Part shown: positions 10,059-38,600 of the stretch, in pieces
How the letters are laid out: each line of letters starts with the position of its first letter
Numbering within the stretch: the first letter of the stretch is position 1
Source: Marinobacterium profundum
Lineage (GTDB): Bacteria > Pseudomonadota > Gammaproteobacteria > Pseudomonadales > Balneatricaceae
Length of the DNA: 64,000 nucleotides
Direction of reading: 5' to 3'
NCBI RefSeq assembly: GCF_001528745.1
Contig: NZ_BCNS01000207.1
Span: 62,001 to 126,000, forward strand
Notes under the pieces: model-generated
Databases searched by the model: none
Told to the model about the DNA's origin: nothing
The model's input: the letters and a program-made list of their open reading frames with translations, nothing else
Made by a program: the position numbers and the translations under genes

Positions 10059-12029
10059 ATGGAACAGGGATTTTTCCATCAGTTTCTGACCATCATTGCT
10101 GCCGCCGTGGTGGTCATAAGCCTGTTTCGCCGTATCGGCCTGCCGCCCATACTGGCGTATCTCTGCGTCGGCAGCCTGCTGGGACCCTACGCGCTGGGGC
10201 TGGTCAGCAACGACGAAAGCATTGCCCTGCTCAGTGAGCTAGGGGTCGTTTTTCTGCTGTTCATGCTAGGGCTGGAATTTTCCCTGCCCCGCATGATTGC
10301 CATGCGCCGCACGGTATTTGGCCTGGGCTCCATCCAGGTACTGGGCACCACCGCCCTGATCATGGGGCTGGCCATGCTCGCCGGCCTGCCCTTTGCCGCA
10401 GGTCTGGTCGTCGCCGGCGCCCTGGCGCTATCATCCACCGCCATCGTCACCCGCGAACTGATCCGGCGCAGCGAGATCAATGCGCCCCACGGCCGCCTGT
10501 CGGTGGCCATACTCATCTTCCAGGACCTGGCGGCGGTCTTTTTCCTTATTCTGGTGCCAACTCTCGCCAGCGATCATACCTCCATCAACCTGCACAGCCT
10601 TATTCCCACCTTGCTGCAGGGCGCCGCAATCCTGGCCGCCCTGCTCCTGTTTGGCCGCACCCTGCTGCCGCGCCTGCTCAACGAGGTTGCCAAGTCCCGC
10701 TCGGACGAACTCTTTGTGCTGACCACCCTGGTCGCAGCCCTCACCGCCGCCTGGCTCACCCATGCCGCCGGCCTGTCGATGGCGCTCGGCGGCTTTCTCG
10801 CCGGCATGATGCTGGGCGAAAGCCGCTACCGCCATCAGCTTGAAGCCGATATCCGGCCTTTCCGCGATGTGCTGCTGGGGCTCTTCTTTGTCTCGGTGGG
10901 CATGCAGCTGAACCTGGCCGCACTGGCGCACAACGGACACTGGGTACTGTTGCTGACGCTGGGCCTTTTGCTGCTCAAGGCCAGCCTGATTGCACTGGCG
11001 GCCTGGCTATTGCAACGGGACATGAGCAATGCGCTGCGCGCCGGAATCTGCCTCGCCCAGGGCGGGGAATTTGGCTTCGCCCTGCTCACCCTGGCCTCAA
11101 GCCACCAGCTGATCAGCAGCGAACTGAACGCCCAGGTGGTAGCCATTATTATTCTCAGCATGCTGTGCACGCCCCTGCTGATTCGCTTTAGCGCCAGCCT
11201 GAGTCGGCGCATCCACAGACCCGCCAGGGACGCCACAGTGCCGGCCCGTAACGCACCCTTGCCGGAAGACCTGGAAGAGCTGTCCGACCACGTCATCCTC
11301 TGCGGCTATGGCCGGGTCGGCCAGGTTATCACCCGCTTCCTGCAACCACTGCAGATCCCCTATATCACCATCGACAGTGATCCGGTGCGCGTGCAGGAAG
11401 CGGCGGCGGCGGGCGAACGCATCTATTATGGCGACGCCAGGCGCACCGATCTGCTGAAAACCCTGGGTTCAAGCCGGGCCCGGCTACTGATTCTCACCTT
11501 CCCCAGTGATAGCGATGCCCTGACCGCCCTGCATGGCCTCAAGCACCATTTCCCGGACTTGCCGGTGCTGGTGCGCACCCAGGATGACAGCCGCCTGCAG
11601 GAGCTGCAGGACGCAGGTGCCACCGAAGTTATACCCGAAGCGCTAGAGGGCAGCCTGATGCTGGTCTCCCACGTACTGACGCTGCTCGACATTCCCCGCG
11701 ACGCCATAGAGTCACGCATCAACCGCGTGCGCGAGGAGCGCTACCGCCTGCTGCATGGCTACTACCATGGCGGCCAATCCCGCAAGCTTGACCACCGTGG
11801 CGCCCAGGCCGAAGTGCTGCACCCGGTGGTACTCTCACCCGGTTGCCACGGCGCCGGCCACAGCCTGCGTGAGCTACAAATCAAGGCCGAGGTAGAGTCC
11901 ATACGCCGTGGCGATGAGCTGCTCAGCGCCGTCGACATTGATACACAACTGCAGGATAACGACATCGTGATTCTGCGCGGCAGCGTCAGCCTGGTGGAGC
12001 GGGCCGAGGCCATACTGCTGGCAGGTTGA
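10059..12029 (+). CDS. Cation:proton antiporter of the CPA2/Kef family with RCK domain
   Basis: An inner-membrane exporter of potassium or another monovalent cation in exchange for protons. The N-terminal part (about 1-385) has a dozen hydrophobic segments, with LGVVFLLFMLGLEF and AILIFQDLAAV typical of Kef transporters. A TrkA-N/RCK NAD-binding domain follows from about residue 405 (HVILCGYGRVGQV), then a TrkA-C domain over the last 80 residues with NDIVILRGS. I chose the ATG at 10059 because it starts directly before the first helix; a GTG at 10041 is in frame. No KefF/KefG-like ancillary gene is adjacent, so KefB/KefC identity is not assured. Confidence 0.85.
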   Translation: MEQGFFHQFLTIIAAAVVVISLFRRIGLPPILAYLCVGSLLGPYALGLVSNDESIALLSELGVVFLLFMLGLEFSLPRMIAMRRTVFGLGSIQVLGTTALIMGLAMLAGLPFAAGLVVAGALALSSTAIVTRELIRRSEINAPHGRLSVAILIFQDLAAVFFLILVPTLASDHTSINLHSLIPTLLQGAAILAALLLFGRTLLPRLLNEVAKSRSDELFVLTTLVAALTAAWLTHAAGLSMALGGFLAGMMLGESRYRHQLEADIRPFRDVLLGLFFVSVGMQLNLAALAHNGHWVLLLTLGLLLLKASLIALAAWLLQRDMSNALRAGICLAQGGEFGFALLTLASSHQLISSELNAQVVAIIILSMLCTPLLIRFSASLSRRIHRPARDATVPARNAPLPEDLEELSDHVILCGYGRVGQVITRFLQPLQIPYITIDSDPVRVQEAAAAGERIYYGDARRTDLLKTLGSSRARLLILTFPSDSDALTALHGLKHHFPDLPVLVRTQDDSRLQELQDAGATEVIPEALEGSLMLVSHVLTLLDIPRDAIESRINRVREERYRLLHGYYHGGQSRKLDHRGAQAEVLHPVVLSPGCHGAGHSLRELQIKAEVESIRRGDELLSAVDIDTQLQDNDIVILRGSVSLVERAEAILLAG

Positions 12030-12103
12030 GATCCTCGCTGTCCTCACCCTTGCGGGGCTGGTAAAATCCGCCCCCTTGATGCACCGGACCCGAGGACAGC
12101 ACT

Positions 12104-13156
12104 GTGGACCCTATTCAATCGCTACTGGACCTGATTCACCAGACAGGCGCGCGTTGTCGCCTGTTTGACATGGGCCGACGGGTCAGCAAAGTGTCGGCTG
12201 AGGTTTTTGGCCGTGTCGAGCAGGGGCAGATCGCCTATCCGCAACCCTATCTGCACCACGCCTGGGTCGGCCTGCTGTTGTGGCACCCCAAGGAGCCCCA
12301 ACGCAATGCCGTCTGGTTTCTCAAGCTGCCGCTGGATGAGCAGGGCTTCCTGATTCAGGCCGTGCGGGACGACCTGCTGCAACGCCTGCTGCAAAACATC
12401 AGCGGCCTGCTCGATGGCGGCCCCGATGCGCTCAAGGACAACCCTTTTTCGTTCAAGCCCGATGCCGAAAAAATGGCCATTTTTCACGCCCATGCCAACC
12501 GCGTACTGGGGCTGCCCGCGTCCCGGCACTACGAATATGCACAACACTATTTTGCCGGCCAGCTTGGGTTTGATCTGTGGCCGAACCTGGGGTTGCAGGG
12601 CATCGCCGATATGGTGGTGCGCCTTGAGCAGGGTAATAACGAGACCCTGCTCATCAGCGCCCTGGCGCAGCTGCCCGACGAACCCCTGCAGGCGCTATGC
12701 TGTGCACTGGAGCATGTTGAGCCGAGCCACCGCCTGATTCAGGCGCTGCAGCCTCGCCTTGATCAGTGCCTGGAACAGCACGGGGATGATCAGGGAATGC
12801 TGGCTGCGCTGGTACGGGCGCTGTCCAACAGCTCCAGCGACACCCACAGACAGGCCTGGCTGAGCCGGATACTGGCCAGTGATCGCTCACTGGAAACGGA
12901 AGTACTGGTAGCGATTGCAACCCGCTGCTGCGAGAGCCTCAAAGACCCTGCACTACTGCAGGCTTTTCTGGAACGCCTGGCGGCGGGGGAAACGGGTCAG
13001 AGCGGGTTTTCGCGCATTATGGCCGATCTAATGTTCATGCCGGCACTGCGCCGTCCCATCATGCAGGCGTTTCGCAATCCCGAGCGCAGCGAAACCCTGT
13101 CGGCGGCAATCGGCGCCATGTTTGGAAGCAACTTTTCCAATGAGCCCGGCGTATAG
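12104..13156 (+). CDS. DUF3549-family conserved hypothetical protein
   Basis: A soluble 350-aa protein without signal peptide or membrane segments. The N-terminal region (LLDLIHQTGARCRLFDMGRRV, PYLHHAWVGLLLW, VWFLKLPLDEQG) matches what I know of DUF3549, a family of Pseudomonas and relatives with no assigned role. The C-terminal half is helical, with repeats of the type LAQLPDEPLQALC. The GTG start at 12104 is preceded by GAGGA. The downstream gene converges on it. Confidence 0.7.
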   Translation: MDPIQSLLDLIHQTGARCRLFDMGRRVSKVSAEVFGRVEQGQIAYPQPYLHHAWVGLLLWHPKEPQRNAVWFLKLPLDEQGFLIQAVRDDLLQRLLQNISGLLDGGPDALKDNPFSFKPDAEKMAIFHAHANRVLGLPASRHYEYAQHYFAGQLGFDLWPNLGLQGIADMVVRLEQGNNETLLISALAQLPDEPLQALCCALEHVEPSHRLIQALQPRLDQCLEQHGDDQGMLAALVRALSNSSSDTHRQAWLSRILASDRSLETEVLVAIATRCCESLKDPALLQAFLERLAAGETGQSGFSRIMADLMFMPALRRPIMQAFRNPERSETLSAAIGAMFGSNFSNEPGV

Positions 13157-20247: not shown

Positions 20248-21561
20248 TTATGCCTGGGAGCTGCTCAGTACCAGGCGCTCAAACAGCAGCACGCCCCAGC
20301 CCAGCATCTGTTCGTCGAAATCAAAGGTGCCGCAGTGGTGACCGCCACCGACGGGCGAGCCCAGGATCAGATGGGTCGCCTCGCCGCCCTGCTCGCGTAC
20401 TTTCTGGATCAGAAATCCCGCATCCTCACTGGCCGAAACCAGAAAGCTGTCCTGCAGCAGCGCCTCTGGCAGGCCTATTTCCAGTGCCATAGCTGCGACC
20501 TGTTTGGCCAGCTCACGGCTGTTGGGGTAGCTGGAGAATTCGGCGAACACCTGGCGTTCCCAGGTTACGCCGTTCATGCGGGCCGCACCATCGAGCACCT
20601 GCTCGGCCGCCGCGGCCATAAAGTCGCAGATATCATTGTCGGCTCCTCGCACCTCGTAGCGAAAGCGCACTTCGTCGGCTATCACATTGTGAGCATTGTC
20701 CGAGGCAAATCGCCCGACATTAACCCGCGACATACCGGCGCTGTGACGCGGTAGCCCATAGAGCCCCTGCACAGCCTGGCACGCCGCCAGCAGCGCATTG
20801 CGGCCGTCCTGGGGCGCATTGCCGGCATGGCTGGCGCGGCCATGAAACACAACATCGTAGATTCTTGCCGCGATCCAGGTGGCATCGAAGATGATTCGAT
20901 AGCGATCGACAATCCCCAGGTGCAACGTCAGGAAGCGTTTCACCTCGGCCATCTGCGGCAGCCCTGCGAACAGTACACCACCGCCGGCCACCTCCTCGGC
21001 CGGCTGGAAAAAGAAATGCACCTTGCCGGTCCAGCGCGCGCGGCTGGCCGCCAGCCGACGCGCCAGCCCAAGGCCAATGGTCAGGTGGCCGTCATGACCA
21101 CAGGCATGCATGATGCCAACATGCTCAGAGGCAAAGCCCTCGGCCGCAGGCAGGTGATCGGCATTCTGGCTTTCCCTGACCGGCAGCGCATCGATATCAA
21201 AGCGAAAACCGAACACCGGCCCTGGCTCCGCAGCCACCAGGCCTCCCTCCAGCGTTGCAACCAACCCGGTGCGATTGCCCTGCATCGACGGCAGATAGCG
21301 GTTATCCGCACCGAGCACCTGCAGAGCCCGTTCGTAGGCGAGACGATCGGTTTCGCCATCCGGTGGATTGGGGGGCCTTTGTGTGCCGTAAAGTGCCTGT
21401 CCCCACTCAACCGCAAAGCCCAGGGCTTCGAGCTCGGCACAAAGCCGCGCCGTGGTCAGATACTCGGTCCAGGACAGCTCAGGGGTACGGTGAAAACCGC
21501 GTCGCGTTTCGCTCAACTCCCGCATCAGCGCGGTATCCGGGCAGGGGGGTAGTAGTGACAT
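20248..21561 (-). CDS. M20-family amidohydrolase (AbgA-like)
   Basis: A zinc peptidase-fold enzyme that cleaves an N-acyl bond. It is 437 aa. Metal and catalytic motifs are intact: FDIDALPV, IMHACGHDGHLTIGL, FFQPAEEVAGGG with the catalytic Glu, and the last ligand in GGGHHCGTFDFDEQML. A dimerisation insert (HGRASHAGNAPQDGRNALLAA) lies mid-protein. The closest family I recognise is AbgA/N-acyl-amino-acid hydrolase. The ATG at 21561 has GGGAG upstream; an ATG 7 codons earlier is possible. As last gene of the operon it could deacylate the product of the M24 hydrolase, but this is inference. Confidence 0.85.
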   Translation of the reverse strand: MSLLPPCPDTALMRELSETRRGFHRTPELSWTEYLTTARLCAELEALGFAVEWGQALYGTQRPPNPPDGETDRLAYERALQVLGADNRYLPSMQGNRTGLVATLEGGLVAAEPGPVFGFRFDIDALPVRESQNADHLPAAEGFASEHVGIMHACGHDGHLTIGLGLARRLAASRARWTGKVHFFFQPAEEVAGGGVLFAGLPQMAEVKRFLTLHLGIVDRYRIIFDATWIAARIYDVVFHGRASHAGNAPQDGRNALLAACQAVQGLYGLPRHSAGMSRVNVGRFASDNAHNVIADEVRFRYEVRGADNDICDFMAAAAEQVLDGAARMNGVTWERQVFAEFSSYPNSRELAKQVAAMALEIGLPEALLQDSFLVSASEDAGFLIQKVREQGGEATHLILGSPVGGGHHCGTFDFDEQMLGWGVLLFERLVLSSSQA

Positions 21562-21604
21562 GTCAGACTCCCGGGGCGCCATCTGCTGACGCCCGCTAAC
21601 AGTT

Positions 21605-23032
21605 CTATTTCAGCTGGCTGGGATCCAGATTCACCGATTTGCGTGCACTGAAAGCCCGCAGCCCCTCGGGGGCCAGCGCCAGAGAGCCATTGCCGGAGGC
21701 GCGCTGACCGATCCAGCCGAGCCTGGCATCGACAAAATTGCAGCGATTAACGTAGACCGTGCCGGTATCCACTTGCGCCACAAAACGCTCGGCCCGTTCC
21801 CGCGACAGGGTGAAAATCGATGCCGTAAGGCCATAGCGACTGTTACACACCTGCTGTACAGCCTCATCGTCATTGGCCACCTGCATGACCGGCAGTACCG
21901 GGCCGAAAGTTTCCTCCTGCAGCACCTGCATTGCCGGCGTCACCTCGGCCAGAAGCGTTGGCTTCAGGAAGGTCACACCGCCAATCTGCTCAGTCTCGCC
22001 ACCGGTGCAGATCCGGGCACCGCCGTCCTGTGCCTGCCGCACCATCGCGAGCAGCCCTGCGACCGTCCGCTCGCCGCCATGCAGCGGCCCCAGGGTCGTT
22101 TCCGGCGCCATCGGATCACCGCTTTTCTCACTTTCCATGATCGCCTGGGCCAGGGCCAGAAAGTCGTCGTAACGGCTGGCATGAACAAACACCCGTTTTA
22201 CGGCACAGCAGGACTGGCCGGAGTTATGCAATCGGCCGATTTTCACCGCCCAGAAAGCCGCCTGCTCGAGATCAGCATCCTCCGCGATATAAGCGGCATC
22301 GCTGCCGCCCAGCTCCAGCGAGCACTGGATAAAGGGCTCCGGCACCTGATTAAAGGCACGCTTGGCAACGCTCTGTTGCACCATGCGCCCCCCCTGCACC
22401 GACCCGGTAAAAACCACATGGTTGATATCGGTTTCTTCGATTATGCGTGCCGAGACCTCATAATCCACCACCGCGTGGGTTAGCAAATGGTCGATTCCGG
22501 CCATAGCTCCAAAGGCCTGCTCGAAATGATCGCCGACCGAGGGCGCGGTGCTGTGCTTGAGCAGCACCGCATTGCCGCTCAACAAGGCGCAGACGGTGCC
22601 GTTAATGGCGCAGAACAGCGGGTAGTTCCAGGGCGTAATGATATAGACCACCCCTTTGGCTCGGCACTCAATGCGCCCTTCGAACCCCTCGTCCTCGTAC
22701 TCAGGATGTCGCCTGGCCTCGAGCGCGCCGTCGGCGGCAAATCGGCACAGGTACTGGGCCCGCTCCAGCATGAAGGTTAGCTCCTCCTTCGCCGCCGCCA
22801 GCGGCTTGCCGACTTCCCGCGTGATCCCTTCAGCGATCGTATCGCTATGGTCGCGAAAATAATCCAGCGCCACGAGTAGATGCCGCGCCCTCTCGGCCGG
22901 ACTGATCGCCCGCCAGGTTCGGGAAGCCCGCTGGGCTGCATCTATATGCGTGCCGACAGCCTCAAAGCTTGCCGATGGCTGCGAAAATACAGACTCCCCG
23001 GTAAAGGGGTTATGGACTTCGATCTGACTCAT
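21605..23032 (-). CDS. NAD(P)-dependent aldehyde dehydrogenase
   Basis: Oxidises an aldehyde to a carboxylate. It is 475 aa with all ALDH signatures: TPWNYPLFCAINGT (cofactor-binding), FTGSVQGGRMV, LELGGSDAAYI with the catalytic Glu, and NSGQSCCAVKRVFVH with the catalytic Cys (two Cys in a row). EETFGPVLPV follows. The sequence is nearest to the semialdehyde dehydrogenase (Sad/GabD) branch. It follows the aldolase-like gene and precedes the M20 gene by about 40 bp. The real substrate is unknown; aminoacetaldehyde or a semialdehyde are candidates. Confidence 0.87.
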   Translation of the reverse strand: MSQIEVHNPFTGESVFSQPSASFEAVGTHIDAAQRASRTWRAISPAERARHLLVALDYFRDHSDTIAEGITREVGKPLAAAKEELTFMLERAQYLCRFAADGALEARRHPEYEDEGFEGRIECRAKGVVYIITPWNYPLFCAINGTVCALLSGNAVLLKHSTAPSVGDHFEQAFGAMAGIDHLLTHAVVDYEVSARIIEETDINHVVFTGSVQGGRMVQQSVAKRAFNQVPEPFIQCSLELGGSDAAYIAEDADLEQAAFWAVKIGRLHNSGQSCCAVKRVFVHASRYDDFLALAQAIMESEKSGDPMAPETTLGPLHGGERTVAGLLAMVRQAQDGGARICTGGETEQIGGVTFLKPTLLAEVTPAMQVLQEETFGPVLPVMQVANDDEAVQQVCNSRYGLTASIFTLSRERAERFVAQVDTGTVYVNRCNFVDARLGWIGQRASGNGSLALAPEGLRAFSARKSVNLDPSQLK

Positions 23033-23140
23033 GGACTTGCCTCCTGGTCTGCTATAAATCCTTTGCGGCTATAAATTGCCTGATATGGCGGGAGCCGTGC
23101 CAACCGGCCCCAATGCCGGTCATTAAAGCGACATGAGCCA

Positions 23141-24187
23141 TTAACGACGGGATAATTGGCTGATGTGATGTACAAATTGATCGATATCCTCAGGACAGGT
23201 ATCGAAGGAGGTCACCAGGCGTACCTCGGAGCAAACTTCGCCCGGCCACACCAGCAGGGGCGTATGTTGCAGCAGCGGCTCGACCCAGGCAGTCGGCAGC
23301 TGCGCAAACACCATATTGATCTCGACCGGTGCGCTCAAGCGGACCTGTTCGAACTGCGCCAGCTGTTTGGCCAGGTAGGCCGCCATCGCATTAGCGTTAG
23401 CCGCATTGCGCTGCCACAGCTGATTGTCGAAATAGGCCAGGAACTGGGCCGCCAGAAAGCGCTGCTTCGAAGCCAGCTGCATGCCCTGCTTGCGGATATA
23501 GGGATAGGCCTGCTGCAACTCAGGATTAAGCACCACCAGCGCTTCGGCCATCATCAGGCCGTTCTTGGTGCCGCCAAAAGACAACACATCAATTCCCAGA
23601 TCCGCCGTCATCTCGGCGAACCCAACGCCAAGCGCCGCCGCGGCATTGGCAAGCCGAGCCCCATCCATATGTACCAGCAGCGCCTTTTCCCGGGCGAACA
23701 CCGTAATGGCCCGCAGCTCTTCAAGGCTATAGACCGAACCGCGCTCGGTGGCCTGGGCCAGCGAGATCACCCGCGGTTGACTTCGGTGCACTACATCTCG
23801 CTCGGCCGCCACCCGCTGTTCCATATTGGCCAGGGTCAGTTTGCCCCCAAGGCTCGGTACTGGTAACAGCTTGCAGCCGACGAAATGTTCGGGGGCCCCG
23901 CATTCATCGACCTGCAGGTGCGCCTCCTCGCTGCACAAGACCGCCTCATGGCTCTGCATCATGCCCTTGAGGGCCAGTACGTTGGCAGCGGTACCGTTGA
24001 ACAGCAGCAGGGTTTCGCTCTGTTCGCCAAACAGAGCTTTGAAACGCGCCAGTACCTGCTGCGTCACCTCATCGGCGCCATAGCCCGGTACATGAGCCTG
24101 ATTCACTTCGGCCAGTTTGGCCATTACCTCGGGATGAACCCCCGAGGCATTGTCGCTGGCCAGCAGATGCCTTCGCACTGCGTCCAT
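23141..24187 (-). CDS. Threonine-aldolase-like PLP enzyme
   Basis: A fold-type I PLP enzyme of the beta-eliminating lyase/threonine aldolase family that cleaves beta-hydroxy-alpha-amino acids to glycine and an aldehyde. It is 348 aa. SDNASGVHPEVMAKL resembles the N-terminal motif of LtaE, FNGTAANVLAL is typical, the PLP aspartate lies in LLVHMDGARLANA, and the Schiff-base Lys in LSFGGTKNGLM. It starts 27 bp after the M24 gene and is followed, after 108 bp, by the aldehyde dehydrogenase gene. This pairing of an aldehyde-releasing and an aldehyde-oxidising enzyme is informative. Confidence 0.88.
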   Translation of the reverse strand: MDAVRRHLLASDNASGVHPEVMAKLAEVNQAHVPGYGADEVTQQVLARFKALFGEQSETLLLFNGTAANVLALKGMMQSHEAVLCSEEAHLQVDECGAPEHFVGCKLLPVPSLGGKLTLANMEQRVAAERDVVHRSQPRVISLAQATERGSVYSLEELRAITVFAREKALLVHMDGARLANAAAALGVGFAEMTADLGIDVLSFGGTKNGLMMAEALVVLNPELQQAYPYIRKQGMQLASKQRFLAAQFLAYFDNQLWQRNAANANAMAAYLAKQLAQFEQVRLSAPVEINMVFAQLPTAWVEPLLQHTPLLVWPGEVCSEVRLVTSFDTCPEDIDQFVHHISQLSRR

Positions 24188-24214
24188 GGGTATCTCCAGA
24201 ATTGAATATTGGTG

Positions 24215-25486
24215 CTATCGAACCAGCACATCACGATTCGCCAGCGTGAGGAAGGTGCAGCCGTTGGCCGTGACCTCCACGGTATCGGACAGAAAAGCAT
24301 CGCCGATGCCCGAATTCAGCAGCCAGCTCATCAAATGAAAGGTCATGCCTTCGCGCAGACGCATCTGGGAATTGCGCCGCAGCCCAACAGGGACACCACT
24401 GCCGGACCAACTCGGTGGATAGCCGATTCCAATAGAGTAACCGCAGTGATGGCGTGAATAGTGCGACAGATCATGGCGGTCGAGCACCGCCTGCCAGGCT
24501 TCGTAGACATCACCGGCCAGGGCACCGGGCCTAATGGTATCGGCAGCCGCCATCATCGCTTCCCGACAAACAGCATTGACTTTCTGTGCCTGCGGCGGCT
24601 CCTCGCCGATAAAAACGAAACGACCAACCGGCGCATGGTAACGTCGCGCGCAGCCGGCCATTTCGAGAAACAGCAGATCACCCGTCACTAGTGTCATATC
24701 CTCCCAGGTACCGTGTTCATGGGCCAGGTTACGGGTCGAACGCACCAGCGGCACGAAGCCGGGATAGGTACCGCCGCGCCTGAACATGGCGTCATAGATG
24801 GCCGCCATGACCTCGCGGGCATGAACGCCTGGACCGGCTGCGGCAATGGCCGACAGCACCATGGAGTCCGAAATAGCGGCGGCCTGACGTGTCAGTTCGA
24901 GCTCCGCCGGCGACTGTACGATACGCACATCGTCGACCAGACTCTCGAGCTGCTGCCAGTCGGCATCGGGCACGCCATTCATGATCCCCTCAGCAATCGA
25001 GTAGGGCAGGAAGGTGCTGTTCATATCGATGCCGACCACGGCTTTCGAAAGTCCTGCATCGGCAAGCGCCCGCACCGTTTCGCGTACCGCTGCACTGGGC
25101 ATAAGATAGGGCCGGCGCCTGGGTTCCCGTGTCGGCGCCCCCATGGTCTGCGACCAGGTTTTGTCGATCAGCTCATCGTCGGTCTGAGCGCCTGGCGGCG
25201 GCTCGGTGCCATCGGTATAGCCGACATGCAGCACATCGGGGGCCTGGTCGCGCACCGTGGCCTTCTCCATCGCCCGAGTGATCAGAACCGGCTGACCACT
25301 GGCCGGCAGGATCAGCAGTTGGCAGGCAAAATACCCCTGGTGATCCAGTCCTGTGAGGTAGTAAATATTTTCGGGGCTGGCGATCAGACAGGCATCCAGC
25401 CCTCGGATAGACATACCGTCCCGGACCTGGCGACGACGTCGTTCATATTCAGCATCATCAAAATAACGGCCACTGATATCGTTCAT
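24215..25486 (-). CDS. M24-family hydrolase resembling ectoine hydrolase (DoeA/EutD type)
   Basis: A 423-aa creatinase/aminopeptidase-P-fold protein, first gene of a four-gene operon. The N-terminal domain has GLDACLIASPENIYYLTGLDHQGYF. In the catalytic domain the usual metal-binding Asp positions of peptidases are replaced: LEMAGCARRYHAPVGRFVF corresponds to what I remember of ectoine hydrolases (FEIAGCYKRYHCPLSRTVF). GYSIGIGYPPSW and REGMTFHLM also agree with that group. This argues for ring or amidine hydrolysis and against peptidase action. The ATG at 25486 has a good GGGAGACGCAAGG leader. Confidence 0.8.
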   Translation of the reverse strand: MNDISGRYFDDAEYERRRRQVRDGMSIRGLDACLIASPENIYYLTGLDHQGYFACQLLILPASGQPVLITRAMEKATVRDQAPDVLHVGYTDGTEPPPGAQTDDELIDKTWSQTMGAPTREPRRRPYLMPSAAVRETVRALADAGLSKAVVGIDMNSTFLPYSIAEGIMNGVPDADWQQLESLVDDVRIVQSPAELELTRQAAAISDSMVLSAIAAAGPGVHAREVMAAIYDAMFRRGGTYPGFVPLVRSTRNLAHEHGTWEDMTLVTGDLLFLEMAGCARRYHAPVGRFVFIGEEPPQAQKVNAVCREAMMAAADTIRPGALAGDVYEAWQAVLDRHDLSHYSRHHCGYSIGIGYPPSWSGSGVPVGLRRNSQMRLREGMTFHLMSWLLNSGIGDAFLSDTVEVTANGCTFLTLANRDVLVR

Positions 25487-26744: not shown

Positions 26745-27821
26745 TTACTGCAAACGTAACTGCAAATTGTTGAGCTGCTGGCGCAATTGCAGCAATTCCT
26801 GATTAAGCTGCCGACGACTGCCATCTATGGCGTGAATCGCCTGCTCATTGACACGAACACGGCGGCTCACATCCGAATTGCCGGCACCGGCTTCCAGCGT
26901 CGCCACCTTGTCACTGAGCTTGCGCAGCGCTTGCTGCTGAACCACTACCTTCTCCGATTGCACCTCTTCGCTGATACGCACCTGGGTCTCCAGGGTTGCC
27001 AGGGAGCGCTTGAGGTCCTGTACGGTTTTGTCCAGATCGCCCTTTAGGCTCGCCTGCCCTTTTTCCAGACCCGCCAGTGCAGCCAGCTGCTTGTCGGTTG
27101 CAGCGCGTGCCTTGTCGCTGGCGGCCAGCCCCGCCTGCAGGGATTTAACCTCAGTGGCCAGGGACTGTAACTCTGTCGTCTGGGACTCTAGTTGTGCAAC
27201 CTGAGACTGCAGCTGAGCGGCCTGGGATTCCAGTTGCGCGACCTGCGACTGTAACTGAGCCGCCTGGACCTTAAGCTGTTCCGCCTGTGGTGAAAGCTGA
27301 GTCAGCTGGGCTGCCTGAACGTCAAGTTGCTTGCCCAGCTGTGCCTGTAACTCCACTTGGCTGGCAAGCAGTTTTTCCTGCGCTTCGAGCTTGGGCTTGT
27401 TGCTCTGGTAGGCGATAGTCCAGAGCTTGGCGATTTCGGAGTCATATTGCTGATATTTTTCGATCGCGGTTTTACCCTGCTGCTCCAGCCTGCCACTGAG
27501 TGTCTGGCCCGACTGGCTGGCACTGTCACTGGTAACCTCAAGCAGCTGCTCCAGGTCTGTCAGTCGTTGCACCGCCTGCGCCTGCTGCTCCAGGCTGTCG
27601 TCCAGCTGCTGCTGCAGGCCGTAGCCCCAGTAGCCCAGGCCGCTGGCAGCAGCGGTAAGCAGCACCAGTACCAGGCTGTGCAACAGGTTGCTGCCCTTCG
27701 CCGCTGGCGGCGGTACTGGAGCCGCACGACGAGGCGGTGGCTCGGCCTGACCACGACCAGGGGCTGCACCTTCGCGCGCTGGCCCCAGATCCGGAATATC
27801 AAACTCTTGCGAACGACTCAT
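26745..27821 (-). CDS. Membrane-anchored coiled-coil protein, unknown function
   Basis: 358 aa. A proline- and arginine-rich cytoplasmic N-terminus (1-45) is followed by one membrane helix (about 47-66) and a long Gln/Leu/Ala-rich coiled coil to the end. Residues 187-200 and 201-214 are an exact 14-residue tandem repeat, AAQLQSQVAQLESQ, equal to two heptads each. No enzymatic domain is recognised. The topology suggests a spacer or scaffold in the periplasm; the partner is unknown. It stands alone between thpR and an NSS transporter gene, all on the minus strand. Confidence 0.75.
   Translation of the reverse strand: MSRSQEFDIPDLGPAREGAAPGRGQAEPPPRRAAPVPPPAAKGSNLLHSLVLVLLTAAASGLGYWGYGLQQQLDDSLEQQAQAVQRLTDLEQLLEVTSDSASQSGQTLSGRLEQQGKTAIEKYQQYDSEIAKLWTIAYQSNKPKLEAQEKLLASQVELQAQLGKQLDVQAAQLTQLSPQAEQLKVQAAQLQSQVAQLESQAAQLQSQVAQLESQTTELQSLATEVKSLQAGLAASDKARAATDKQLAALAGLEKGQASLKGDLDKTVQDLKRSLATLETQVRISEEVQSEKVVVQQQALRKLSDKVATLEAGAGNSDVSRRVRVNEQAIHAIDGSRRQLNQELLQLRQQLNNLQLRLQ
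27180..27263 (-). repeat. Two tandem 42-bp repeats inside the coiled-coil gene
   Basis: The two 42-bp units encode the same 14 residues but differ at eight bases, all synonymous. So the duplication is old and the protein repeat is being kept by selection. Confidence 0.7.
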
Positions 27822-27908: not shown

Positions 27909-29312
27909 TCAGCCAAGGTTGTAGACAAACACCACCAGCACGGCTGCCGGGCTCAGATAACGCAGCACAAAATGAAATACCTCAAAAGTGAGGCCCTCAC
28001 CCAGCCCGATACCCTCGCGCAATGTTTGAGGCTTCATGGCCCAGCCGGCGTAGAGCGCAATTGCCAGGCCGCCCAGCGGCAACGCCAGATTCGACACCAG
28101 GAAATCGAACAGATCGAACAGCGTCTTGCCCTCAAAGCGGGCGAGGAAATCCAGCGGATGAAACTGCGCCCAGATATTGAAGGACAGCACAGTACAGATG
28201 CCCAGTAACCAGATCATGGCACCGGACATAAATGCACCCAGCATGCGGCCAATGCCCTTGTCTTCCAACCATTCCACCACCGGCTCGATCATAGAAATGG
28301 CCGAGGTCACCGCGGCCACCAGCAGCAGCACAAAGAACAGGGTGCCAAACACGACACCACCGGTCATCTGCCCAAAGGCCAGCGGCAGGGTCACGAAAAT
28401 AAGCCCTGGGCCTGCGCCCGGCTCAAGACCGTTGGCGAAGACCAGCGGAAAAATCGCCAGCCCCGCCAGCAGCGCCACCAGTGTATCCAGCAGACCAATG
28501 GTGACGACGGTACGGGCAATATTGACGTCTTTGGGCAGATAAGAGCCATAGGCCATCATCACGCAAATACCGGTACTCAAGGTAAAGAAGGCATGGCCCA
28601 GCGCGGTCAGTACACCTTCGGTGGTCAGCTTGCTGAAATCCGGTGTAAACAGGAAAGCCAGTGCCTGGGCAAAATTGCCGCGCACCGCCGCGTAAGCTAC
28701 CAGCACCAGCAGCAACACGAAAAGTAGCGGCATCAGCAGCCTGATGCTGCGCTCCATACCGGCGCGTACACCGCTGCCGGCAATAAGCACCACCAGTAAC
28801 ATGAACAGGCTGTGCCAGAATAGCAGCGATACAGGATCTGCCAGCAGCTGGCCAAAGAGCCCGCCAATGGTGGCGGCGTCAGCACCGTTGAAAGCCCCTT
28901 CTGCCGCAAGGCCCACATAAGCCAGGGACCAGCCTCCCACCACTGAATAAAACGACAACAGTACAAAGGCCGCGACAAAACCAATCCAGGCCATCCAGCC
29001 CCAGCGCGCCGACACACCATCGCGCCGGGCTAGCAGTGCCATGCCCTGAATGGGACTGCAGCCACTGCGCCGACCCAGCAGAATTTCAGCGGCCAGAATC
29101 GGCAGACCCACCACCAGAATACACAGCAGGTACACCAGCACAAATGCACCGCCGCCATTTTCACCGGTGATATAGGGAAATTTCCAGATATTGCCCAGGC
29201 CAACGGCGGAGCCCGTGGCAGCAAGAATAAATGCCAGCCTGGAGGACCACTGAGGGTGCATCACCCCACCGCTGCTGGCATCGGAGCCTGGAACCGAGTC
29301 AACCCTGGACAT
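27909..29312 (-). CDS. Sodium-dependent transporter of the NSS/SNF family
   Basis: Sodium symporter for an amino acid or amine, related to LeuT. 467 aa with about 11-12 membrane segments. The first helix has the sodium/substrate site SRLAFILAATGSAVGLGNIWKFPYITGENGGGAF; HAFFTLSTGICVMMAYGSYLPKD is the helix 6 region. The ATG at 29312 has CAGGAGA at the right distance; the 37 extra codons upstream are not membrane-like and not supported. The substrate cannot be read from the sequence. It is on the same strand as the 20-25 kb operon but separated by two unrelated genes. Confidence 0.9.
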   Translation of the reverse strand: MSRVDSVPGSDASSGGVMHPQWSSRLAFILAATGSAVGLGNIWKFPYITGENGGGAFVLVYLLCILVVGLPILAAEILLGRRSGCSPIQGMALLARRDGVSARWGWMAWIGFVAAFVLLSFYSVVGGWSLAYVGLAAEGAFNGADAATIGGLFGQLLADPVSLLFWHSLFMLLVVLIAGSGVRAGMERSIRLLMPLLFVLLLVLVAYAAVRGNFAQALAFLFTPDFSKLTTEGVLTALGHAFFTLSTGICVMMAYGSYLPKDVNIARTVVTIGLLDTLVALLAGLAIFPLVFANGLEPGAGPGLIFVTLPLAFGQMTGGVVFGTLFFVLLLVAAVTSAISMIEPVVEWLEDKGIGRMLGAFMSGAMIWLLGICTVLSFNIWAQFHPLDFLARFEGKTLFDLFDFLVSNLALPLGGLAIALYAGWAMKPQTLREGIGLGEGLTFEVFHFVLRYLSPAAVLVVFVYNLG

Positions 29313-36902: not shown

Positions 36903-38231
36903 TTAGAACCCTTCTCGCCCGGCGGCTGCAAACGCATCGCGGGTTAAGTTCTCGCAGCCCAGTGCAGTCACGGCAACATTGTCCTCGATACGGATACCGC
37001 CGAACGGCAGCAGGGTATCCACCAGCGCCCAATTCACGGTGTCACCGCCTGGAGTTTGGCGCAGTTTGCCAAGCAACGACGGGATGAAATAAAGTCCCGG
37101 CTCAATAGTGACAACAAAACCCGGCTGCAGCGTTCGAGTCAGGCGCAGAAACGGATGTTCCAGTGGCGGCTCACGCAGGTAACCCTTTGCGTCCTGCTGC
37201 CAGCCACCAACATCATGCACCTGCAGGCCTAGCAAATGACCAAGACCGTGGGGGAAGAAGGTGCGGGTGATTCCCTGTTCGACCTGCGCTTCGACGCTAG
37301 CATTCACGAGGCCGCAGTCGCGCAGAATCTGCGCCAGGGATAAATGCATCTGCTGATGCAGTTCGACGAAATCGACCCCCGCCCGAACCTGCGGCAGCAG
37401 CGCCCGCTGCGCCCCATCAAGCAGCGATACCAGCCCGGCGAAGACGGACTCGCCATCGGCGACATGGGTGCGAGTAATATCGGCGGCGTAACCGTGCAAC
37501 CTAGCGCCGGCGTCAATCAGCAGCGTACGGTGCAGCGACGGCGCCTGATGCTGCTGAAACTGGTAGTGCAGCACGGCGGCATTGCTGTTCAGCGCAACAA
37601 TATTATCGTAGGGCAGATCCCGCTCGTTATGAGCGGTGGCGGCAAGGTAACCCTGGTGAATACGGTACTCACTGGCGTCAGCCCGGAACAGTCCCTCTGC
37701 CGCTATATGGCCCTGAACGGCAATACGATTGGCCCGGCGCAGGCACTGCAGCTCCCAGTCGGTCTTTACTGCTCGCTCAAAATCGAGCCGAGCGATAAGC
37801 GCGGCAGGATTATGCGCCCAGTCATCCCGCGCGAAGGCCCCGCGCGCTTCAGCGATCAATGCCGTATTACCGAGATTTTGGAAAACTGAACTGAGCCTGC
37901 GGACATCAGCGAAACATTCAATTTCGAATTCTTCAGTCCAGTCACCGCTCGGCGCTTCGGGCGTCTGGTGCCAGAAATCGTCCGGACAGTAGAGATAGAG
38001 CAAGGGCTTTTGACCTGGGCGCAGTAGCAACCAGCTACCGGGGTGCTCTCTCAAGTGCGGCAGCCATTGCACAAAAGGCGGATGGGCACGAAAGGGGTAC
38101 TGGGTATCATCCAGAAAACGTCGCGGCGCCGTGCCTGAACCCAGCAATAAAGCATCAAAGCCAGTTTCACTCAGGATGCGGTCGAAGCGCGTCCTGAGCG
38201 TTGTGATATGACGTTCAAACAGTCTGTGCAT
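36903..38231 (-). CDS. pepQ: Xaa-Pro dipeptidase (prolidase)
   Basis: Manganese-dependent M24 peptidase that splits dipeptides with C-terminal proline. 442 aa, as in E. coli PepQ (about 443). All five metal ligands are visible: LLIDAGARLHGYAADITRTH (two Asp), FFPHGLGHLLGLQVHD (His), TIEPGLYFIP (Glu) and GGIRIEDNV (Glu). This contrasts with the M24 protein at 24215, which lacks them. The ATG at 38231 has GGAGTAGATTGT upstream. Confidence 0.93.
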   Translation of the reverse strand: MHRLFERHITTLRTRFDRILSETGFDALLLGSGTAPRRFLDDTQYPFRAHPPFVQWLPHLREHPGSWLLLRPGQKPLLYLYCPDDFWHQTPEAPSGDWTEEFEIECFADVRRLSSVFQNLGNTALIAEARGAFARDDWAHNPAALIARLDFERAVKTDWELQCLRRANRIAVQGHIAAEGLFRADASEYRIHQGYLAATAHNERDLPYDNIVALNSNAAVLHYQFQQHQAPSLHRTLLIDAGARLHGYAADITRTHVADGESVFAGLVSLLDGAQRALLPQVRAGVDFVELHQQMHLSLAQILRDCGLVNASVEAQVEQGITRTFFPHGLGHLLGLQVHDVGGWQQDAKGYLREPPLEHPFLRLTRTLQPGFVVTIEPGLYFIPSLLGKLRQTPGGDTVNWALVDTLLPFGGIRIEDNVAVTALGCENLTRDAFAAAGREGF

Positions 38232-38600
38232 ACAATCTACTCCGACCTTCGGCCTGAATCCGGTCAGGACTTTTACACCCACTCACTGGCGGCAATACTG
38301 CCTCTCTAATCATGGCTCATGATTGTATCTGCGCTCTCAGCTATTCGCACCTGTTGCGGCTGCAAGGCCGCTGGAGAGGTTTTGCGCACGCTCAGAAGAT
38401 GCGCCCTCCTGAGCGACCTAAGTCCTTAACCTGTGTTCGTCTTTTATCAGGCAAAAAAAATCCGGCATTCAATAAAGAATGCCGGATTCTGTTCAAGCTT
38501 TGGGTCGCTGGCAAGCCTTGTTTAAACAGCCTTGCCGTACGAACCTAGCTTGTAGCAATGATCCGCCCAAAGGCGAGTCAAAGGAGCCTGGGCAGGCTGT
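38232..38600. other. Intergenic region between groEL and pepQ
   Basis: 369 bp holding the groEL terminator near 38453-38488 and the pepQ promoter region. No further gene is seen; the short open frames have no ribosome binding sites. Confidence 0.5.
38453..38488 (-). terminator. Intrinsic terminator of groESL
   Basis: TCCGGCATTC (38461-38470) and GAATGCCGGA (38477-38486) form a perfect 10-bp stem with a 6-nt loop. On the minus strand it is followed by eight T residues, about 110 bp past the groEL stop. Confidence 0.9.

Follow-up and report, generated by a model that had tools for sequence, protein, structure and literature searches.

The DNA analysed here (hereafter the window) is a 64,000 nt stretch of Marinobacterium profundum contig NZ_BCNS01000207.1 (positions 62,001 to 126,000), and harbours a minus-strand operon of four genes encoding an M24 hydrolase, a threonine-aldolase-type enzyme dependent on pyridoxal phosphate (PLP), an aldehyde dehydrogenase and an M20 amidohydrolase. 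Sequence comparison places the M24 protein in a third, well-supported clade of DoeA-like M24 proteins (hereafter clade III), which is neither DoeA/EutD nor DoeA_2. The operon may catabolise 5-hydroxyectoine or a very close relative, with the aldolase and the dehydrogenase replacing EutB and EutC, a reading that we hold tentatively, as a good possibility rather than a probability. If so, hydroxyectoine, a stress-protecting molecule, would probably be cut into two glycines by this salt-tolerant marine bacterium.

The operon and the clade of its M24 protein

The operon is led by the gene for the M24 (creatinase/prolidase-fold) hydrolase (24215..25486, minus strand), whose 423 aa product matches Pfam Creatinase_N and Peptidase_M24. 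This is followed on the same strand by genes for the PLP-dependent threonine-aldolase-type enzyme (23141..24187; 348 aa; Pfam Beta_elim_lyase, PF01212), the NAD(P)-dependent aldehyde dehydrogenase (21605..23032; 475 aa; Pfam Aldedh) and the AbgA-like M20 amidohydrolase (20248..21582; 444 aa; Pfam Peptidase_M20 and M20_dimer, with TIGR01891). Both the coordinates of the open reading frames (ORFs) and the Pfam matches confirm the tight order that had been predicted, including gaps of 27 bp between the M24 and aldolase genes and 108 bp between those for the aldolase and the dehydrogenase. The M20 gene may start at 21561 instead of 21582, as two congener alignments begin there, at its second methionine; its distance from the dehydrogenase gene would then be 43 bp instead of the 22 bp measured from the listed start.

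The host belongs to the Marinobacterium group and has a genome of 5.6 Mb, with relatives at 85-96 % identity in M. sedimentorum, M. rhizophilum, M. nitratireducens and an Oceanospirillaceae metagenome-assembled genome (MAG). An identical four-gene order, free of internal stops, is present in all seven genomes of the genus set (the window, L043-L046, L053 and L054), with M24 proteins that are 85-97 % identical. The catalytic motifs of the other three enzymes are likewise retained throughout, namely FGGTKNG, the lysine of which we take to bind PLP, and DECGAPE in the aldolase, GQSC and LELGG in the dehydrogenase, and HACGHDGH, PAEE and HH in the M20 protein. Because the wider gene order around the operon is also conserved within the genus, conservation there would by itself reflect vertical keeping and not function.

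With regard to the M24 protein, the reference for metal binding was provided by the two peptidases of the same genome that score over cut-off, an Xaa-Pro aminopeptidase (L001) and a methionyl aminopeptidase (L002), whose D/D/H/E/E positions we take to be the M24 peptidase ligands. These align with E275, P286, Y350, M386 and S400 of the window protein, such that all five are replaced, in agreement with the original prediction, and the replacement is of the same kind as in the DoeA groups. An identity as an ordinary M24 metallopeptidase was rejected on this basis, and because the protein stands apart from the own-genome peptidases in the tree. Two further M24 proteins of this genome, L003 and L005, display D/D/H/E/E only partly in the alignment; L005 (contig C91) resembles the dimethylsulfoniopropionate lyase DddP (420 bits, cut-off 600). 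The window itself contains another member of the family at 36903-38282, an ordinary Xaa-Pro dipeptidase (546 bits, cut-off 339).

Among 68 distinct solved sequences, DoeA (6twk) is the top match at 155 bits, and a profile of eight clade members scores DoeA at 196 bits, peptidases at no more than 127 and creatinase at no more than 68. Ten residues (H258, W261, E275, Y283, R289, Y350, P357, P358, W360 and H384) are common, at ≥70 % each, to five DoeA-like groups. The predicted likeness to DoeA/EutD is thus borne out as far as nearest solved relative and active-site residues are concerned, but not as membership: the protein is about 30 % identical to DoeA, scores 194 bits against the EutD/DoeA model TIGR02993 (cut-off 613) and 235.9 against the DoeA_2 model NF038259 (cut-off 575), and is separated from both in two trees, where clade III has support of 100/100. 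Assignment to either group was rejected accordingly. The first tree comprised 53 rows (13 loci were skipped as repeats, identical stretches were merged and 8 of 61 rows omitted), and the second 38, from which 18 of the 53 rows were omitted (long branches, near-copies and the divergent M24 of L102) and to which three other M24 proteins of the own genome were added as outgroups. Neither tree contained creatinase, an identity that was rejected by score, the clade profile being far closer to DoeA. In the 53-row tree, a close subclade of 10 rows (100/100) unites the window protein with further members from Gammaproteobacteria.

Clade III is rare, in that a single-protein search (E ≤ 1e-45) detected matches in 4 of 369 class genomes including the own, two of which, at 33-35 %, belong to DoeA_2, and a clade profile search (E ≤ 1e-80) in 7 of 398 phylum genomes including the own, both sets being draws and not censuses. 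Further M24 proteins that lie outside the three clades are present in L026, L051 and L085, and score 170-181 bits to DoeA_2 (cut-off 575).

Genomic partners of clade III

The close subclade was assessed in 11 genomes, comprising the seven of the genus, Arhodomonas (L047), a gammaproteobacterial MAG (L048), a Salinisphaeraceae MAG (L049) and Mangrovitalea (L052); ORFs in high-GC loci, both here and in the deeper clade, were chosen by codon-position GC or by inspecting all ORFs. The immediate neighbour of the M24 gene is the aldolase in eight of these (the genus and L048), and in the remaining three (L047, L049 and L052) a threonine-dehydratase-like gene, with an overlap of 8-14 bp when the likeliest starts are used. 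Both the threonine aldolase and the threonine dehydratase families act on beta-hydroxy-alpha-amino acids. Within L048 the aldolase, which retains both motifs, and the M24 gene are divergent neighbours, each approximately 69 % identical to its window counterpart, and hence the pair has persisted through a rearrangement. L048 falls with Marinobacterium in both trees, but weakly (85/12 in the 53-row tree, 91/68 in the 38-row tree), a placement that would fit one replacement of the dehydratase by the aldolase. Co-occurrence of all four genes, as originally envisaged, therefore holds for the seven genus genomes, with the M24-aldolase pair alone recurring outside them, in L048. No close relative of the dehydrogenase or M20 protein was found beside M24 outside the genus (the L048 stretch spans only 8.3 kb), although L049 has an aldehyde dehydrogenase of 29 % identity some 3 kb from its M24 gene.

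The three dehydratase-like proteins are 57-64 % identical to one another, and score 193-253 bits with two EutB models (cut-offs 413) and 260-287 with threonine ammonia-lyase (cut-off 496). EutC-like proteins accompany two of them (390 and 311 bits), Mangrovitalea being the exception, versus a maximum of 148 bits in the eight aldolase carriers. In L049, the EutC-like gene, which at 311 bits is below cut-off, lies on the same contig as M24, whilst ectD (354.5 bits, cut-off 336.5) is divergent from and 294 bp distant from the M24 gene, with ectB approximately 8 kb off. This Salinisphaeraceae genome possesses two ectD copies over cut-off, one beside the clade III M24 (L049, 8786-9697) and the other in L070. 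Among the close-subclade loci listed, none has a recognised sarcosine-oxidase gene.

A search of the same genomes for ectoine genes was in line with the original proposal. All seven genus genomes carry ectD over cut-off, versus 9 of the 50 further relatives (one more falls short by 1.4 bits; Fisher p 4e-5), and EutB, EutC, EutD and EutE are over cut-off in none of 12 genomes searched (the seven and five others; EutA was not searched for). For EutE, there is no match even at E ≤ 0.001 in the genus genomes, and the statement of Eut absence for the genus covers these seven only. Other genera of the family harbour DoeA-like M24 proteins (L019-L025, 52-57 % identical to rhizobial DoeA) and DoeA_2-like ones (L016-L018, 70-75 %).

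Beyond the close subclade, 14 deeper loci were opened (L050, L098-L103 and L110-L116). From 15 plasmid records encoding clade III proteins closely related to that of Mesorhizobium, six were opened (H1, H4, H5, H7, H12 and H25), together with the more distant H16. All 14 loci have an Ehu-type (ectoine) transporter of which three or more subunits were recognised, as judged by record annotation in L098, L099, L100, L102 and L116, by EhuA and EhuB over NCBIfam cut-off in L050, and by similarity to annotated Ehu proteins in the other eight. The order in L110 is EhuBCDA-EutB-EutC-M24(III), with EutB at 427.2 bits (cut-off 413.35), EutC at 476.8 (cut-off 471.65) and a DoeA at 626 (cut-off 613) nearby. 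The cluster in L103 contains EutB, EutC, EutE and DoeA, all over cut-off, and L102 has DoeA by record annotation alongside its clade III M24. A second, DoeA-like M24 gene accompanies that of clade III in L098, L101, L103 and L112-L114.

Genes annotated as beta-eliminating-lyase-related, the family of the aldolase, occur in L099, L100 and L116; their products are 36 % identical to the window aldolase in L099, where no NCBIfam match was found at E ≤ 1e-20, and 34 % over the covered part in L100. A 78-residue piece of threonine aldolase (55 % identity) adjoins sarcosine oxidase genes in another gammaproteobacterium (G789; L137, 18279-18770). Directly after the clade III M24 gene of L050, a Propionibacteriales MAG with EhuA and EhuB, is an enolase-superfamily gene (11160-12335), whose product is muconate-cycloisomerase- and cis-3-hydroxyproline-dehydratase-like but below all cut-offs.

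Proposed route and its alternatives

Hydroxyectoine as the putative substrate is well supported by this context. In the favoured route, the M24 protein would open the ring to yield N-gamma-acetyl-3-hydroxy-2,4-diaminobutyrate with its alpha-amino group free, and the PLP aldolase would cleave this compound into glycine and N-acetylaminoacetaldehyde. The latter would be oxidised to N-acetylglycine by the aldehyde dehydrogenase, and deacetylated by the M20 amidohydrolase to acetate and a second glycine. The steps proposed (M24, aldolase, dehydrogenase, M20) follow the gene order and avoid free aminoacetaldehyde. PLP aldolases and dehydratases require a free alpha-amino group, and, should clade III make the gamma isomer, the aldolase could act at once because that isomer leaves the group free. 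Native hydroxyectoine, by our own working of its configuration, appears L-allo-configured, corresponding to L-allo-threonine, and low-specificity aldolases accept such substrates. This L-allo form would also fit the proposal that EutA inverts (S)-hydroxyectoine for EutB (PMC5924519; here and below, citations refer to the sections of each paper that were available).

The three partner enzymes are compatible with these roles at the level of family. The aldolase matches PF01212 at 176.5 bits (cut-off 27) and three solved structures (7yvr, 5vye and 1v72) at 237-255 bits, including the L-threonine aldolase 7yvr at 254.6, and falls below the curated NCBIfam models PRK10534 (65.4 bits, cut-off 312) and GntG (77.3, cut-off 230). 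The dehydrogenase resembles succinate-semialdehyde, aminobutyraldehyde and betaine-aldehyde dehydrogenases, and is below every cut-off among the best 25 of 43 families. The M20 protein exceeds the cut-off of TIGR01891 (230.7 bits, cut-off 153.75), an amidohydrolase group to which hippurate hydrolases presumably belong, and its nearest solved relative is an aminobenzoyl-glutamate utilization protein (3io1, 251 bits). The M20 family cuts N-acyl-alpha-amino acids.

Several observations weigh against this route. Its initial step needs the gamma isomer, whereas EutD is reported to yield hydroxy-alpha-ADABA (a hydroxylated N-alpha-acetyl-2,4-diaminobutyrate), in which the alpha-amine is acetylated (PMC8739950). 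The activity ascribed to the M24 protein derives from family likeness, with both ectoine-hydrolase cut-offs missed. The dehydratase-like partners would be EutB-like at most, and not EutB, as threonine ammonia-lyase scores higher, and no M20 orthologue was detected in seven non-genus genomes, dehydratase carriers included (E ≤ 1e-20); partial M20 matches outside the genus reach 35 % in G425, and 34 % and 31 % in G789. Mangrovitalea possesses a clade III M24 but no ectD, which was also not found in the genome of L050. The co-occurrence with ectD was rejected as independent proof because the seven genomes are one genus and hence one event; counted in this way, the contrast is only suggestive. Of the scanned neighbours, none was recognisable as an ectoine transporter or regulator, genome-wide uptake genes not having been searched for. 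Finally, sarcosine-oxidase alpha and beta genes are present in 11 of the 14 deeper loci (all but L050, L110 and L115), so that the clade, in part or as a whole, may act on a different substrate.

Concerning the surroundings of the operon, a gene for a sodium-dependent NSS-type transporter lies upstream on the same strand (27909-29309), and such a gene is near the operon in four genus loci. It was rejected as the uptake system, since the match is to the general family only and two genes intervene, of which one encodes a 2',3'-cyclic phosphodiesterase and the other is an ORF without a match; NCBIfam gave nothing for 26745-27821. No riboswitch or other RNA was detected between 17000 and 32000 at E ≤ 1, and promoter and terminator scans did not exceed shuffles (3 versus a mean of 1.9, and 4 versus 4.8).

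The sarcosine-oxidase genes are central to a somewhat unlikely alternative, by which the operon acts on a different substrate, be it another cyclic amidine or guanidine or an N-acyl beta-hydroxy amino acid, perhaps N-methylated, with hydroxyectoine a mere analogue and the rhizobial M24 product feeding sarcosine oxidase. These genes are directly downstream of M24 in seven loci (L098, L101-L103 and L112-L114) and are joined by PurU in L099, L103 and L116; the annotations of L099, L100, L102 and L116 further include the delta and gamma subunits. PurU is a one-carbon enzyme, and hydroxyectoine has no N-methyl group. The combination of Ehu-like transporter, clade III M24 and sarcosine-oxidase cluster extends over rhizobial plasmids and four proteobacterial genomes (L098-L103, L111-L114 and L116). 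Since DoeA coexists with the clade III protein in L103 and L110 (over cut-off) and L102 (annotated), clade III would not simply be the ectoine hydrolase there, and an AtzE-like amidase in L099 (349.8 bits, cut-off 461) would suit a carbamoyl product. On the other hand, the close-subclade loci listed lack any recognised sarcosine-oxidase gene, the EutB-EutC-M24 row of L110 and the EctD gene beside M24 in L049 point to hydroxyectoine, and the 11 loci represent fewer independent events, several of them being closely related to one another. Either the substrate of the deeper branch is a different, N-methylated compound, or the oxidase has a separate job. As hydroxyectoine does not explain these genes, it is uncertain whether a function read from the deep branch also applies to Marinobacterium, and the argument consequently leans mostly on L047-L049, L052 and L110. 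The original proposal of a hydroxyectoine aldolase pathway accordingly gains from the DoeA-like M24, from ectD, and from EctD, EutB, EutC and Ehu genes beside clade relatives, and leaves the sarcosine-oxidase genes unexplained.

That proposal also differed from the favoured route in its sequence of steps, having the M20 enzyme deacetylate the opened ring before the aldolase splits 3-hydroxy-2,4-diaminobutyrate into glycine and aminoacetaldehyde, with the latter then converted by the dehydrogenase to the second glycine. The context evidence is equal for both orders, and the hydroxy-alpha-ADABA of EutD would need deacetylation before a PLP enzyme acts (PMC8739950). Its premise that the known deacetylases, DoeB and EutE, are of a different family holds for those two but overlooks a catalogued M20-type DoeB2 (NF038260), which the window M20 protein matches at 109 bits (cut-off 550). 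In favour of this order, L118 has DoeB2 clustered with DoeA_2, an aminotransferase and an aldehyde dehydrogenase (record annotation), and the same grouping recurs in L056 (DoeB2 at 655.2 bits). The M20 gene of the operon, however, is last and not second, its product is AbgA-like rather than DoeB2-like, the dehydratase carriers have no orthologue of it, and free aminoacetaldehyde is reactive, all of which renders deacetylation before cleavage quite unlikely. Least likely, and improbable in our view, is that the four enzymes have unrelated housekeeping or scavenging roles and were brought into one operon by history, for example in general amino-acid salvage. Each family is indeed widespread, and the conserved surroundings make the seven-genome conservation partly vertical, but the M24-aldolase pair recurs divergently in L048 with both proteins at about 69 % identity, active-site motifs are retained and the clade is rare.

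Returning to the favoured hydroxyectoine route, a broader version of it, which we regard as unlikely, would apply to the clade as a whole. Clade III would open hydroxyectoine on the other amidine side from DoeA, thereby freeing the alpha-amine for PLP enzymes, and would be paired with one of three unrelated partners that deal with the beta-hydroxy group, an EutB-like dehydratase, a threonine aldolase or perhaps an enolase-superfamily dehydratase (L050), with the aldolase version of Marinobacterium leading to two glycines and acetate via N-acetylglycine.

Relation to known systems

Were the favoured route correct, it would account for the turnover of hydroxyectoine in genomes that have ectD and lack EutD and EutE, would mean that part of the marine ectoine cycle escapes searches based on EutD, EutE and EutB, and would add a new hydrolase clade, perhaps with distinct regiochemistry. 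The operon occurs in culturable marine bacteria, making the handling of the 5-hydroxyl directly testable, and appears to use well-understood chemistry. EutABC are described as lacking precisely assigned activities (PMC8739950), and the steps proposed for them had not been biochemically evaluated as of 2018 (PMC5924519). In the available sections of the ectoine-catabolism literature found, no aldolase route to hydroxyectoine is described, as the original prediction had supposed; threonine aldolase appears there as ltaE in enzyme lists of figure legends only, without a link to hydroxyectoine breakdown. A survey of ectoine catabolism focused mainly on genomes that possess EutD, EutE and EutB, naming an M. 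mangrovicola cluster in a figure legend and describing the Marinobacterium EutD as the most divergent among Proteobacteria (PMC13188858). Some Marinobacterium species thus carry genes counted as EutD, EutE and EutB.

Taken as a whole, the operon appears to be a variant of the known ectoine and hydroxyectoine catabolic systems, with a proposed function. Its M24 protein shares with EutD/DoeA (TIGR02993; 6twk) the M24 family without metal ligands and ten residues of the active-site region, and differs in its low identity, its score of less than a third of the cut-off and its fully supported separate clade. The DoeA_2/DoeB2 cluster (NF038259 and NF038260; M20-aminotransferase-M24-aldehyde dehydrogenase) likewise combines an M24 hydrolase, an M20 deacetylase and an aldehyde dehydrogenase, but has an aminotransferase where the window has an aldolase, and its models are matched far below cut-off (235.9/575 and 109/550); DoeB2 is known here from its NCBIfam model and record annotation, the name not being met in the ectoine literature listed. 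In putative ectoine clusters of Gram-positives, an abgB-thrA-adh block similarly places an aldehyde dehydrogenase gene and one for an AbgB amidohydrolase beside eutD, with no eutE, although its thrA is described as an enzyme that reduces aspartate semialdehyde to homoserine and not as an aldolase (PMC13188858). With the L-threonine aldolases and the 'aldolase' 1v72 (7yvr, 5vye and 1v72), the window aldolase has family and PLP-lysine motif in common, and is set apart by its genomic coupling to an ectoine-hydrolase-like M24. As proposed for the operon, the EutABC module acts on the hydroxylated compound, and its EutB belongs to the threonine dehydratase family and probably depends on PLP (PMC5924519). 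The proposed chemistry of EutABC is one of dehydration and reduction, whereas that proposed for the operon, in seven genus genomes with neither EutB nor EutC over cut-off, is one of aldol cleavage and oxidation.

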